DNA of 64,000 bases. Origin: Anaeromyxobacter sp. Fw109-5. Lineage in GTDB: Bacteria; Myxococcota; Myxococcia; Myxococcales; Anaeromyxobacteraceae. Where the stretch lies: positions 620,001 through 684,000 of the forward strand of contig NC_009675.1 in the NCBI RefSeq assembly GCF_000017505.1, given 5' to 3'. Position numbers and translations under genes: made by a program. Positions 48,402-52,898 of this stretch are shown piece by piece; position 1 is the stretch's first letter; the number at the start of each line of letters is the position of its first letter. The notes below the pieces were generated by a model. It was not told where the DNA came from, searched no databases, and saw only the letters and a list, made by a program, of their open reading frames with translations.

Positions 48402-49505
48402 CTACTCGGCGGCGGCCCGGTAGCGCTCGACCGTCGCGCCGAGCGAGTGTGACATCTCCGCGAGCGCCTTCGCCGCCTGCTCGATCCCCGCCGCGCTGCT
48501 CACCGCCGCCGAGGTCGCGGCGGAGATCTGGCCCATGGCGGCGACGATCTCGTCGATGCCGAGCGTCTGCTGCCGCGCGGCCAGCGCGATCTCCCGCGCC
48601 TCCGTGGCCGAGTCGCGCACGAGGCCCCCCAGGCTGTCGATCGCCGTCGCGGTGCTCCGGGCGAGCGCGATGACCCCGTCGGCGCGCGAGCGCCCCTCGC
48701 TCGCCGCGCTCGCGGTCCGCTCCACCCGGGCGAGCACCCCGCCGACGATCCGCGCCACCTCGACGGCGGCGCCGCGGGACTGCTCCGCGAGGGAACGCAC
48801 CTCGACGGCCACGGTCCCGAACCCGCGGCCGTGCTCGCCGGCCCGCGCCGCCTCGAGCGCGGCGTTCACGGCGAGGACGTTCGACTGCTCGGCGACGTCC
48901 TTCACGGTCTCGACGATGTCGCCGATGCGCCGCGCATCGGCCGCGAGCTCCGCGGTGGCCTGCGCGATCGATTCGACCGCGGCGGCGAGGTCCTCGATCC
49001 CGCTCACGACCCGCTCCACGGCGCGCTGCCCCTCCGTGGAGAGATCGCCGGAGCGGTCCGTCACGGCGATCACGCCCTCGGCGCGCTCCGCCGAGCGCAC
49101 CGCCATCTGGGCGATCTCCGCCGCGGACGTGGAGGTCTGCGCGATCGCGCTCGCTTGCTGCGCCGCCCCGGCGGCCTGCTCGGCGGCGCCGCCGCGGATC
49201 CGCGTCGCCTCCTCGGCCAGGGATCGCGCCGCCCCGGCGAGCTCGCCGGCGGCCCGGACGTACGCCTCGCGCCGCGCGGCGTCGATCGCGACGGCCCGGT
49301 CCTGTCGAACGCCCGCCACGCGCGCGAGCAGCGCGAGGACGAGCGGCGCCAGGGCGACGATCCAGAGGAGCGGCGACCGCAGCGCCGCGGCGAGCGCCGC
49401 GGGGCCGACGCCGCCGTGCCGCGAGGCCGCCTCCAGGACGGTGGCGATGACGGGGAAGCAGGCGCCGAATGCGGCGCCGTACCAAGCGTACCTGCGGGCG
49501 AACAT
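48402..49505 (-). CDS. Methyl-accepting chemotaxis protein with short membrane anchor
   Basis: 367 aa. Two N-terminal helices (~10-28 and ~45-65) with no periplasmic sensor domain between them, then a long coiled signalling domain. The hairpin tip reads AEQSNVLAVNAALEAARAGEHGRGFGTVAVEVRSLAEQSR (~235-275), the universal receptor tip that contacts CheA/CheW. It is likely to sense a membrane or cytosolic signal. No che genes are beside it. ATG follows GGAGGATCGGAG. Confidence 0.88.
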   Translation of the reverse strand: MFARRYAWYGAAFGACFPVIATVLEAASRHGGVGPAALAAALRSPLLWIVALAPLVLALLARVAGVRQDRAVAIDAARREAYVRAAGELAGAARSLAEEATRIRGGAAEQAAGAAQQASAIAQTSTSAAEIAQMAVRSAERAEGVIAVTDRSGDLSTEGQRAVERVVSGIEDLAAAVESIAQATAELAADARRIGDIVETVKDVAEQSNVLAVNAALEAARAGEHGRGFGTVAVEVRSLAEQSRGAAVEVARIVGGVLARVERTASAASEGRSRADGVIALARSTATAIDSLGGLVRDSATEAREIALAARQQTLGIDEIVAAMGQISAATSAAVSSAAGIEQAAKALAEMSHSLGATVERYRAAAE

Positions 49506-49637
49506 CTCCGATCCTCCGGGCGACTCCCTCGCGGAGTCGGCGCCGTGACTCTCCCGGATACGACGCCCCTCCGCAACTCGGCGTCCGCTCGCCGGCGCGA
49601 AAGCCTTCGCGCCGATCGGGTCCGACCCTGGGCGGTG

Positions 49638-49672
49638 TTGACGGCGTCGAGCGTTCAGAATAATCTGAACGC
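49638..49672 (+). promoter_or_regulatory. Promoter and operator of the GbsR/MarR regulator gene
   Basis: TTGACG (49638-49643), 17-nt spacer, TAATCT (49661-49666). Overlapping the -10 box is a perfect palindrome with 9-bp arms, GCGTTCAGA-ATAA-TCTGAACGC (49651-49672). The ATG is at 49677, so the leader is at most a few nucleotides. The same motif recurs at 50247-50268. Confidence 0.75.
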
Positions 49673-49676
49673 AACG

Positions 49677-50204
49677 ATGGCCACGACCGCTCCCGAAACC
49701 GTGCAGCGCTTCGTCGAGGCCTGGGGCGCGATGGGGTCGCTCTGGGGCATCAACCGGTCCGTGGCGCGCGTGCACGCGCTCCTCATGGCCACCGAGGAGC
49801 CGCTGCCGCTGGAGGAGATCGCGGGGCGGCTCCGGATCTCGAAGGGCAACGCCTCGATGTCGCTGCGCGAGCTGCGGACGTTCGGCGTCGTGCGGCAGGT
49901 CGAGGTGGCGGGCGATCGCAGGGACTTCTACGTCACCGAGCCCGACGTGTGGCTCATGTTCTTCCGCATCCTGAAGGAGCGGAAGCGCCGCGAGTTCGAT
50001 CCTGCCCTCGAGGCCATCCACGCCCTCGTCGACGCCCCTGGGGCGACGGGCGCCGTGCGCGGGCGGCTCGAGCAGATGGCGGACCTGCTCACCACGGTCG
50101 AGGGCGTCGTGAACCGGTTCCTCCAGGATCCGCAATCGTCCCGGTCGGCGCTGGCGTTCATCGCCGGCATGCCGTTCGGCCGAAAGCAGAACGGGAAGGG
50201 ATAG
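49677..50204 (+). CDS. GbsR/MarR-family transcriptional regulator
   Basis: 175 aa. VQRFVEAWGAMGSLWGINRSVARVHALLMATEEPLPLEEIAGRLRISKGNASMSLRELRTFGVVRQV is the GbsR winged helix. The C-terminal third is helical for dimerisation. Close relatives regulate osmoprotectant or detoxification genes; the target here is suggested by the recurrence of its own operator in front of the downstream epimerase. Start placed at ATG 49677, directly after the operator, without a ribosome site. Confidence 0.87.
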   Translation: MATTAPETVQRFVEAWGAMGSLWGINRSVARVHALLMATEEPLPLEEIAGRLRISKGNASMSLRELRTFGVVRQVEVAGDRRDFYVTEPDVWLMFFRILKERKRREFDPALEAIHALVDAPGATGAVRGRLEQMADLLTTVEGVVNRFLQDPQSSRSALAFIAGMPFGRKQNGKG

Positions 50205-50246
50205 CGCGGAGTCGCATCGGCAGATGGAGGTGTCGTCGCGTCGTAA

Positions 50247-50268
50247 GTGTTCGCAAAATTCTGAACGC
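50247..50268 (+). promoter_or_regulatory. Second copy of the regulator's operator, upstream of the epimerase gene
   Basis: GTGTTCGCA-AAAT-TCTGAACGC. The right arm is identical to the site at 49651-49672; the left arm matches 6 of 9 bases (GTGTTC/GCGTTC core). It is 28 nt upstream of the ATG at 50296. Confidence 0.65.
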
Positions 50269-50295
50269 TGGCAGATGTCACGAGGAGGGAGACGC

Positions 50296-51210
50296 ATGAG
50301 CCGCCCGCACGTCCACGCGATCACCGGAGCCTTCGGCTACAGCGGACAGGAGATCGCGCGGCTGCTCCTCGCGCGCGGCGAGCGCGTGAGGACGCTCACC
50401 GGTCACCCGGAGCGACCGGACCCGTTCGGCGGAAGGGTCGAGGTGACGCGCTTCCGCTTCGACGATCCGTCCCGGCTGCGCGACGCGCTCGCGGGCGTGC
50501 GGGTGCTCTACAACACGTACTGGGTCCGCTTCGATCACGGGGCCTCGACGTTCGCGCGGGCGGTCGAGAACAGCCGCGCCCTCTTCCGGGCCGCGGCCGA
50601 GGCGGGCGTGGAGCGCGTCGTCCACGTGTCCATCACCAACCCCGCGCCGGACTCGCCGCTGCCCTACTTCCGCGGGAAGGCCGAGGTCGAGCGCGCGCTC
50701 GGCGAATCGGGGCTCTCCCACGCGATCCTCCGCCCCGCGGTGTTCTTCGGCGGCCGGGACGTCCTCATCAACAACATCGCCTGGCTGCTGCGGCGGCTGC
50801 CGCTGTTCGGCGTGGCGTCCGGTACCTACGGCATCCAGCCGGTGCACGTGGAGGACCTGGCCCGCCTCGCCGTGGAGCACGCGGAGCGCGGCGCCGACGT
50901 GGTCCTCGACGCGGTCGGGCCCGAGGCGTTCGCCTTCGACGAGCTCGTGGGGCTCGTCCGGAGGGCCGTCCGCTCGCGGGCCGCCATCGTACGGGTCCCG
51001 CGCTGGCTGCTCCTCGGCGCCGCGCGCGCGCTCGGCGCTCCGCTCGGCGACGTGGTGCTCACCCGAGACGAGGTCCTGGGGCTGACCGGGAACCTCCTCG
51101 TCTCGCACGGAAGGCCCACCGCCGGGACGCGCTTCTCGGACTGGCTCGCCGCCCACGCGGACGAGCTCGGGGTCGCCTGGGCCTCGGAGCTGGGTAGACA
51201 CTACAAGTGA
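50296..51210 (+). CDS. NAD(P)-binding epimerase/NmrA-like protein
   Basis: 304 aa atypical short-chain fold. ITGAFGYSGQEIARLLLARGERVRTLTGHPER is the dinucleotide-binding start. VHVSITNPAPDSPLPYFRGKAEVE contains the YxxxK-type Tyr/Lys spacing (Y-F-R-G-K). Such proteins modify ubiquinone assembly, reduce quinones or bind cofactor as sensors. ATG follows GAGGAGGGAG. Transcribed after the GbsR regulator and preceded by its operator, so probably its regulatory target. Confidence 0.82.
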   Translation: MSRPHVHAITGAFGYSGQEIARLLLARGERVRTLTGHPERPDPFGGRVEVTRFRFDDPSRLRDALAGVRVLYNTYWVRFDHGASTFARAVENSRALFRAAAEAGVERVVHVSITNPAPDSPLPYFRGKAEVERALGESGLSHAILRPAVFFGGRDVLINNIAWLLRRLPLFGVASGTYGIQPVHVEDLARLAVEHAERGADVVLDAVGPEAFAFDELVGLVRRAVRSRAAIVRVPRWLLLGAARALGAPLGDVVLTRDEVLGLTGNLLVSHGRPTAGTRFSDWLAAHADELGVAWASELGRHYK

Positions 51211-51282
51211 ATTGACCGGGGGCGCGAACGCACGGAAAGCGAGGACGTCCCCGTGATGGTGGCCCTGCGGCGCCGGAGCGGG

Positions 51283-51891
51283 CTAACCGACGGCGAGGGC
51301 GAGGAGCAGCTGCCCGGCGTAATAGATCGGAAGCCCGATCAGCCGGTTGGCCAGGCCCGGCCGCACGAACCGGTCTCGCGCGACGAGCAGGTCCGAGGCG
51401 TAGAAGAGCAGCGCCCCGGCCCGGACCTCAAGCCGAGCGACCCCGAGCGCGAGCCACAGCATCACGCTGATCACGGCGCAGTACGCGACGACCGGGACCC
51501 GCATGTCGCCGAGGCCTCTCCAGAGCCAGCGGAGCGCCGCGCCCGTCGCGGCGAGGACGAGGAGCGCGAGCGCAGGCGAGGGGTGCGTCACGCGGGCGAA
51601 GGCGATCGCGTACGCGACGTGCGCCAGCAGGAACGCGACGAGCCCGCCCAGGAACGGGACCCGCCGCCCGGAGAGGAGGAGCGCGTCGCCCACGACGGAC
51701 AGGACCAGGCCCGCGAGGATCCCCCGCTCGAAGGCGCCCTCGACTCCGAGGGCGAGCGCGAGCGCCACGAACGTCGCGGAGGCGCCGAGCTTCCCCACGG
51801 CACGTGCGAGCGGCGCTCCGCGCCGGTCCGCGACGAGGTGCAGGGCGAGCAGCGCCGAGACGCACACGAAGGCGATCCACCCGGCGGGCAT
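51283..51891 (-). CDS. YhhN family membrane protein (lysoplasmalogenase-like)
   Basis: 202 aa with about eight helices. VLSVVGDALLLSGRRVPFLGGLVAFLLAHVAYAIAF holds the conserved Asp and the segment FYASDLLVARDRFVRPGLANRLIGLPIYYAGQLLLAL the second Asp set of the TMEM86/YhhN family, some of which hydrolyse lysoplasmalogens. ATG 51891 leads straight into the first helix. Myxobacteria make plasmalogen-type ether lipids, which would give such an enzyme a substrate (general knowledge, not shown here). Confidence 0.85.
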   Translation of the reverse strand: MPAGWIAFVCVSALLALHLVADRRGAPLARAVGKLGASATFVALALALGVEGAFERGILAGLVLSVVGDALLLSGRRVPFLGGLVAFLLAHVAYAIAFARVTHPSPALALLVLAATGAALRWLWRGLGDMRVPVVAYCAVISVMLWLALGVARLEVRAGALLFYASDLLVARDRFVRPGLANRLIGLPIYYAGQLLLALAVG

Positions 51892-51986
51892 CTTGGAAGT
51901 CGAGCACGACCGGGAGGCTGCGTCCACGCGCCGGGCACGGCCGGAGGGTGGTCGTGCGCGCGACCGCGAGCCGTGCGCCCGGGAGC

Positions 51987-52898
51987 TCAGCGATACCCGC
52001 TCACGTCCGCGGGCTTGCCGGCGTCCTGGACCTCGACGAGGTACCGCCACGCGTCGGGCTGGCTGCCGTCGAGATCGGTGAAGCCGTAGACCTTCGCCAG
52101 CTGGCCGCTGGACAGCGACTGACCGTTCCAGCGCGACACGTCGGGGTCGCGGGCGAGCGCGGCGACGGCCCTGCCGACGTAGGCGGGGCTCTCGGAGATG
52201 GCGAAGTGGGGCGTCGTCCTGGTCGCGTCGCGCCAGTTCGCCTCCGTGACGCCGTACGCCTCGAGCATGACCTCCGATCGCAACCACCCCGGAGTCAGCG
52301 AGACCGCCGTCGCACCGTGGGGCGCCAGCTCGTGCGCGAGCGCGAACGCCATGCGGAGGTTCGCCGCCTTGGCGAGATCGTAGAAGAAGGAGACCCGGTA
52401 GTTCGTCGCGTTGTACTCGGCCGTGCCGTCGGTGACCTCGACGACGAGGCCGCCAGGCGTCTTCAGCAGCAGGGGGATCGCGAAGTGGCTGGTGATGGCG
52501 TGCGTGTCCACGGCCAGGCGCAGCGTGTGCAGCCCGTAGTCCAGCGACGATTCCCAGGCAGTCTTGCCCCACTCCATCCTGGTGGCGCCAAAGATGTCGT
52601 TCACGAGCACGTGCAGGGCGCCTTGCTCCTCCTCGATGCGAGCGACGAGCGCGCGCACCTCGGCCGGCACGAGGTGGTCCACCTCGACGGCGATCCCGTG
52701 ACCCCCGGCCCCGTCCACGAGCGCCGCGGTCTCCTCGATGGTCTCCGGCCGGTTCATCTCCGAGCGCCGGGAGCGGGTCGTCCGCCCGGTGACGTAGACG
52801 GTCGCTCCGGCCGCGCCGAGCTGGACGGCGATCCCGCGTCCGGCGCCTCGGGTCGCCCCGGCCACCAAGGCGACCGTGCCTGCCAGCGAGGTCTTCAT
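51987..52898 (-). CDS. Short-chain dehydrogenase/reductase
   Basis: 303 aa. GATRGAGRGIAVQLGAAGATVYVTGRTTRSRR is the glycine-rich cofactor loop with two arginines that favour NADP. The catalytic Tyr and Lys are in YDLAKAANLRMA (Y-x3-K), with the Thr/Ser-rich VVEVTDGTAEYN strand before it. The long C-terminus (~60 residues beyond the usual SDR) is typical of the SDR group related to DHRS1. ATG 52898 follows GAGGA. Substrate unknown. Confidence 0.85.
   Translation of the reverse strand: MKTSLAGTVALVAGATRGAGRGIAVQLGAAGATVYVTGRTTRSRRSEMNRPETIEETAALVDGAGGHGIAVEVDHLVPAEVRALVARIEEEQGALHVLVNDIFGATRMEWGKTAWESSLDYGLHTLRLAVDTHAITSHFAIPLLLKTPGGLVVEVTDGTAEYNATNYRVSFFYDLAKAANLRMAFALAHELAPHGATAVSLTPGWLRSEVMLEAYGVTEANWRDATRTTPHFAISESPAYVGRAVAALARDPDVSRWNGQSLSSGQLAKVYGFTDLDGSQPDAWRYLVEVQDAGKPADVSGYR

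Follow-up and report, generated by a model that had tools for sequence, protein, structure and literature searches.

A GbsR-type regulator gene with putative operators before itself and before the gene that follows

Why would a regulator gene carry nearly the same palindrome twice, once in front of itself and once in front of the next gene? We address this question for a locus of Anaeromyxobacter sp. Fw109-5. The window, the 64,000-nucleotide stretch of DNA analysed here, belongs to a single-contig genome of 5.28 Mb and presents the following features:

49638-49643, plus strand: -35-like hexamer TTGACG of the predicted regulator promoter, 5/6 to TTGACA, with a 17-nt spacer
49651-49672, no strand assigned: site 1, putative operator, a perfect 9+4+9 palindrome with core GTTCAGAATAATCTGAAC at 49653-49670
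49661-49666, plus strand: -10-like hexamer TAATCT within site 1, replaced by TATTCT in most orthologues
49677-50204, plus strand: GbsR/MarR-type regulator of 175 aa (Pfam, NCBIfam, PDB, Foldseek), predicted leaderless or near-leaderless
50247-50268, no strand assigned: site 2, putative second operator copy, with core GTTCGCAAAATTCTGAAC at 50249-50266
50282-50289, plus strand: Shine-Dalgarno-like GAGGAGGG of the second gene, from the sequence
50296-51210, plus strand: NAD(P)-binding SDR-type protein (NAD_binding_10/NmrA, NDUFA9-like) of 304 aa, the presumed target

Site 1 reads GCGTTCAGA-ATAA-TCTGAACGC, letter for letter the palindrome reported in the initial annotation, and ends 4 nt before the regulator ATG. 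The annotation also placed it over the regulator's own -10 box, which holds as a prediction (TTGACG, 17 nt, TAATCT). The second copy that it described before the next gene, with an identical right arm, is likewise there: site 2 reads GTGTTCGCA-AAAT-TCTGAACGC and is identical to site 1 at 9/9 positions of the right arm and 6/9 of the left, where TTCG stands in place of an exact TTCA. The regulator and the 304-aa gene lie on the same strand, separated by 91 nt; 27 nt separate site 2 from the second-gene ATG at 50296.

Identity of the regulator and of the second gene

The regulator shares 95% identity with its counterparts in Anaeromyxobacter soli and A. terrae. It scores 26.0 bits against Pfam MarR_2, just under the cut-off of 27. 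Its best NCBIfam model is CudC (E 1.9e-13), which we take to be a GbsR-type regulator; the score of 50.6 is far under the cut-off of 218, so the protein is not CudC itself. Among solved structures, the best relative by phmmer is Mj223 (PDB 1ku9, E 1.3e-14), which served as a template for GbsR models (PMC6207618). An AlphaFold2 model (pLDDT 85.1) displays the N-terminal winged helix and C-terminal dimerisation helices of Mj223. Its top Foldseek match is again 1ku9_A (E 2.4e-8, TM 0.62/0.70), and the seven matches with E at most 0.001 are all chains of 1ku9, 5jbr and 4nb5. Plasmid homologues about 39-42% identical to the regulator are annotated GbsR/MarR. Of six plasmid loci examined, three have the homologue, annotated GbsR/MarR, ahead of cydDC or cydAB; in the other three it precedes DUF4166-SDR genes, stands alone or belongs to a record without annotation. 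Since 1ku9 comes first both by sequence and by predicted fold, and since homologues are annotated GbsR/MarR, the label 'GbsR-type' given initially is right. It does not imply membership of the choline-sensing branch. The osmostress branch of GbsR has an aromatic cage that binds choline or betaine (PMC6207618).

The second gene had been called an epimerase, which is acceptable as a fold label but not as more, given that Pfam ranks NAD_binding_10 (E 1.4e-13) and NmrA ahead of Epimerase. The nearest solved chain, PDB 9g83 (E 4e-25), is named NAD-dependent epimerase/dehydratase, and most other solved chains near this protein are complex-I NDUFA9 subunits. No cyd family was detected by Pfam among the seven proteins of the scanned region. 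On the minus strand downstream, an SDR oxidoreductase above the NF006159 cut-off (51987-52895) lies near a YhhN-family gene (51283-51900).

Conservation and distribution of the palindrome

We compared ten non-redundant loci carrying both the regulator and the SDR gene, eight of them from genomes of the family, the window included, the other two being L038 and L039; where a locus was present in duplicate, one copy was kept. Site 1 is clear in nine of them (15-17 of 17 consensus positions) and degraded in L038 (10/17). Site 2 has a counterpart in all ten, at 12-16 of 17 positions. For either site, shuffled regions average 8.6 with a maximum of 13 in 3000 trials; the three lowest site-2 scores (L036 and L037, 13; L038, 12) are therefore not significant alone, which slightly lowers our confidence in the explanation proposed below. 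Mean pairwise identity among the ten loci is 0.82 for site 1 and 0.76 for site 2, against 0.27-0.43 for the flanks. In a further locus (L086, contig C22 of genome G016), the regulator has shrunk to a short remnant at about 1336-1518, but the SDR gene is still there, and so is site 2 (L086:1464), with a score of 15/17.

The initial annotation had proposed a genome-wide scan, which would expose a randomly scattered motif. At up to three mismatches, two matches were observed in the window versus 0.06 expected from shuffles, and sites 1 and 2 are the only matches in the whole 5.28 Mb genome, with none for a reversed-pattern control. A looser 13-base pattern gave 45 genome matches versus 16 in the control; four of the 45 are the two sites read on both strands, and the best of the others, all inspected by eye only, is at C1:223146 (1 mismatch). 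The 18-mer was also run, at up to three mismatches, on 13 of the 24 family genomes. In the eight with a regulator orthologue, matches are confined to the regulator locus (to site 1 in G004 and G022); two of the five without an orthologue show one weak match each. A regulator paralogue of the same genome (43% identity, C1:4936861) lies behind a UbiA prenyltransferase gene. Neither the 9-kb stretch around it nor any of 14 further paralogue stretches, some of which overlap, contains TTCA-N8-TGAA; the search covered both strands, the motif being palindromic.

A literature search for the motif strings returned a single paper, PMC6096048, in which the Alishewanella CydE DNase footprint is TATTTCAGAAATTTCTGAAAGTTCA. 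The core of this footprint, TTCAGAA-N2-TTCTGAA, is that of the window sites, with the same spacing: site 1 agrees with the palindrome at 13/14 positions and site 2 at 12/14. CydE and CioR, both of GbsR type, repress cytochrome bd operons (PMC6096048, PMC11837568). They share with the window unit the type of protein, a regulator-first operon and autorepression, the latter predicted here. They differ in their targets, which are cytochrome bd genes, whereas the next gene in the window is of the NAD_binding_10/NmrA type. Furthermore, the second CydE footprint differs in sequence and belongs to the same promoter region as the first, whereas site 2 lies between genes.

Exact copies of the core (14/14) occur at three of the six plasmid loci: before cydDC-linked regulators on two Rhizobium plasmids and before the cydAB-linked regulator in Microvirga. 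In other families of the order, TTCA-N8-TGAA was found about 1 kb upstream in 10 of 11 fetched loci, with weak matches only in the remaining one (L018). Weaker upstream copies (11-12 of 14) are seen in L042, L043 and L067, and no clear core match in the L041, L044 and L078 homologues. The core is not universal: among the six plasmid homologues, two carry another palindrome and a third shows no clear match. A different perfect palindrome, TTTCTGTCATGACAGAAA, is centred on the ATG of Methylobacterium and Novosphingobium homologues. In L075 and L077 (about 2960), where the start codon lies at its centre, TTGAC-like hexamers stand ahead of it, and these genes would be leaderless by position too. 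In L073 (5760-7450) and L061 (2898-4368), a polyprenyl synthetase gene is followed by a GbsR-type regulator gene, with an operator behind a TTGACA hexamer; in L073 the putative operator sits between this hexamer and the gene pair. Together with the UbiA neighbour noted above, the polyprenyl synthetase neighbours suggest isoprenoid or quinone links for the GbsR-type family.

Might the palindromes belong to another regulator, or be conserved in DNA or RNA for a reason that has nothing to do with the GbsR protein encoded beside them? We regard this as very improbable. The sites track the regulator orthologue in the 13 family genomes searched, the same core is found at GbsR genes with unrelated neighbours as well as in the CydE footprint, and site 1, lying upstream of the predicted transcription start, could hardly be an RNA element. 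Because the sites are kept while their flanks diverge, the motif is limited to the locus and the core is that of the CydE footprint, a regulator with putative operators before its own gene and the next is well supported as sequence anatomy, and so, at that level, is the small autoregulated circuit that was initially put forward. TTCA-N8-TGAA would then be an operator code common to many regulators of a little-characterised family. With occurrences in Myxococcota, Proteobacteria and relatives of a Bacteroidetes metagenome-assembled genome (MAG), such a code should make regulator targets predictable from sequence.

Promoter position and the two-site layout in distant loci

In eight of the ten orthologous loci, TTGAC, TTGAT or TTGCC stands 17-18 nt before TATTCT, TATTTT or TAATCT at site 1. 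The window hexamer TAATCT matches TATAAT at 3/6 positions, and a consensus promoter scanner run over 49400-51400 returned no promoter, hence none at site 1 or site 2; the case for a site-1 promoter thus rests on conservation. Between the end of the site-1 core and the ATG lie 3-6 nt in the eight close loci and 11-12 nt in L038 and L039. Such proximity leaves no room for a Shine-Dalgarno sequence, and the regulator mRNA should, judging from the promoter position, be leaderless or nearly so. The second gene, unlike the regulator, has its Shine-Dalgarno-like GAGGAGGG. Two other choices of regulator start were considered and rejected: upstream start codons, because differences of 1-3 nt in the site-to-ATG length break the frame among orthologues, and a GTG at codon 9, which is unconserved among them.

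We then looked for the layout beyond these loci. The search covered 119 genomes of the class that includes L040, a MAG with the title Bacteroidetes; 40 had matches, and the best 30 of 43 matches were taken. It also covered 188 genomes of the phylum that includes L039, a MAG with the title Deltaproteobacteria, of which five had matches, giving 5 loci. The resulting 35 loci include L040 and L039, the latter also among the ten orthologous loci, and are related by descent, so that the counts below are not independent events. Of these 35 loci (best 30 of 43 plus 5), 30 have TTCA-N8-TGAA in the 150 nt that precede the regulator, and 22 have it in the 130 nt that follow the stop codon; the downstream site was not found in the other 13. 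Control spacings of 4-7 and 9-12 gave 0-1 of 35 loci on either side, and the background is 0.012 per 150 nt. The downstream site starts 16-20 nt past the regulator stop in 17 of the 22 loci that have it (best 30 of 43 plus 5). The genes after it vary: small proteins without Pfam match, a DCC1-like oxidoreductase, a CMAS-like methyltransferase and an NmrA-like SDR, with DUF1731 epimerases nearby downstream in three of five stretches examined.

TAnnTTTG at -7 is the promoter word of Bacteroides. In the L040 class (best 30 of 43 matches), this word begins 31-35 nt after the start of the upstream site in 19 of 26 loci (26 and not 25, the script covering a slightly different upstream stretch), whereas none was found within -50 to +100 of the downstream site in 19 loci. 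Its end lies 3-4 nt before the first in-frame ATG in 15 of the 19 loci that have it at the upstream site, and L100 and L101 would also fit leaderless spacing if the second ATG were the start; leaders under 10 nt are reported to account for only about 3.7% in B. thetaiotaomicron. The presence of TAnnTTTG at the upstream site alone points to this site as the promoter operator; the downstream site shows no such promoter.

The two-site layout is, on this comparison, apparently old and extends beyond the window locus. The 'duplicated' operator of the initial annotation therefore needs qualification: the second copy is real, but a layout found in distant homologues implies no recent copying. The circuit appears more general than the annotation had claimed, while the motif, which it offered as a means of finding other targets, led to no further one in this genome at up to three mismatches. 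Recurrence in distant bacteria suggests an old, little-studied switch for a two-gene unit, with a proposed operon plan of two operators around one leaderless gene. We found no paper on a two-site layout of GbsR genes, as judged by titles and the starts of abstracts.

Possible roles of the second site

The sites, their conservation, the family-wide core and the lack of a recognisable promoter at site 2 are observed; binding, repression, a leaderless start, a roadblock and an inducer belong to what we infer as their best explanation. We think it probable that the two genes are a self-contained unit under autorepression. Bound to site 1 as a dimer, the GbsR-type regulator would cover the -10 box and the transcription start of its own promoter. 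Transcription would start at the regulator ATG or a few bases from it, yielding a leaderless mRNA and probably a low level of regulator, and for translation of the second gene there would be an ordinary ribosome-binding site. In the intergenic region, another dimer on site 2 would act as a roadblock and halt polymerase reading through from the regulator gene. With two operators in series, both would have to be vacated for full expression of the SDR-type enzyme, as would happen when an inducer frees them.

A roadblock mode is reported for B. subtilis GbsR, and promoter occlusion for OpcR (PMC7396694). GbsR is of the same family and has an inverted-repeat operator, and our proposal would put roadblock and occlusion in one protein; GbsR and OpcR differ in their choline-linked targets, divergent regulator genes and A/T-rich operator. 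At Chlamydia trpRBA, an operator bound by YtgR between a regulator gene and its target terminates read-through (PMC6504234), as proposed here for site 2. YtgR differs in being iron-dependent and not the product of the first gene, and that intergenic region is described as also having a promoter. A leaderless, autorepressed regulator operon was shown for AcuR-AcuI-DddL (PMC3017554). Like the unit predicted in the window, it combines autorepression, a leaderless regulator mRNA, an operator over the promoter and a second gene with its own Shine-Dalgarno sequence; AcuR differs in being of the TetR family, and the accessible part of that report presents no second operator between the genes. Other papers drawn on are PMC5401885 and PMC7366714.

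Alternatively, the SDR gene could have a promoter of its own, weak or dependent on an alternative sigma factor, with site 2 as its operator; the two promoters would then be repressed separately. We hold this to be possible but rather unlikely. The -35 zone of site 2 is partly conserved (0.45 among the eight close loci), CGTGC occupies the -35 position at a single 16-nt spacing in four of the ten loci, L033 has TAAAAT inside site 2, and a weak or non-sigma70 promoter is conceivable in GC-rich Myxococcota. However, the best match to TTGACA at a spacing of 16-18 nt is at most 3/6 in all ten loci, TAnnTTTG is missing beside the downstream site in the L040-class loci described above, and the AcuR-AcuI intergenic stretch is reported without detectable reporter promoter activity (PMC3017554). 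Because no such promoter is seen downstream, and in view of the B. subtilis GbsR and YtgR reports, we prefer the roadblock, which we judge about twice as likely, to a hidden second promoter as the probable role of site 2 in the GC-rich clade of the window.

Two dimers might also join the sites by a DNA loop that strengthens repression of a single promoter. One regulator and a distance of 596 bp between the window's two sites would permit this, but GbsR is described as a homodimer (PMC6207618, PMC7396694), and the start of the downstream site 16-20 nt after the regulator stop, in 17 of the 22 distant loci that have this site, fits a local role. A loop thus seems improbable to us.

In the distant loci, the downstream site has a companion. 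An A-tract without TpA step, at least 6 long, is present at -22 to -8 of this site in 20 of 22 loci (best 30 of 43 plus 5), versus 2 of 31 upstream sites (31 and not 30, for the difference in script coverage given above) and 1 of the 13 loci that lack a downstream site; among random 15-mers the fraction is 0.059. No such tract was found beside site 2 in the window and its close relatives. An intrinsic terminator before site 2 was dismissed, as hairpin energies are no better than those of shuffles: mean z is -0.01 in the ten orthologues and -0.30 in the distant set (21 of 22 loci, one being omitted for N), with coding controls at -0.72 and -0.39. A T-tract terminator gated by the repressor and DNA shaping for the dimer would both fit the A-tract. 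With the tract 10-20 bp upstream of the operator, the 3' end of a stalled RNA would fall in or near a U-rich stretch, and a bare T-tract would so become a switchable terminator. We therefore advance, as a tentative generalisation that we consider less probable than the roadblock unit itself, that in several phyla a leaderless GbsR-type repressor gene lies between two of its own operators, the first closing the promoter and the second serving as a repressor-gated terminator; in the L040 class and the relatives of L039, its pairing with an A-tract of T6-8 or AAAAAATTTT located some 10-20 bp upstream would make a switchable, hairpin-free T-tract terminator.

Individual tracts, mostly T6-8 or AAAAAATTT, are seen 10-20 bp upstream of the second operator in L098-L106, L109, L116, L117, L120, L122, L123, L125-L128 and L130. 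Between the regulator stop and the SDR gene of L039, two more half-site-like stretches follow the second operator. Finally, a third GTTCA half-site directly after the palindrome (TGAAAGTTCA) is visible in the CydE footprint and in L022, L024, L031, L073, L102, L115, L123 and L124, and may reflect cooperative binding.
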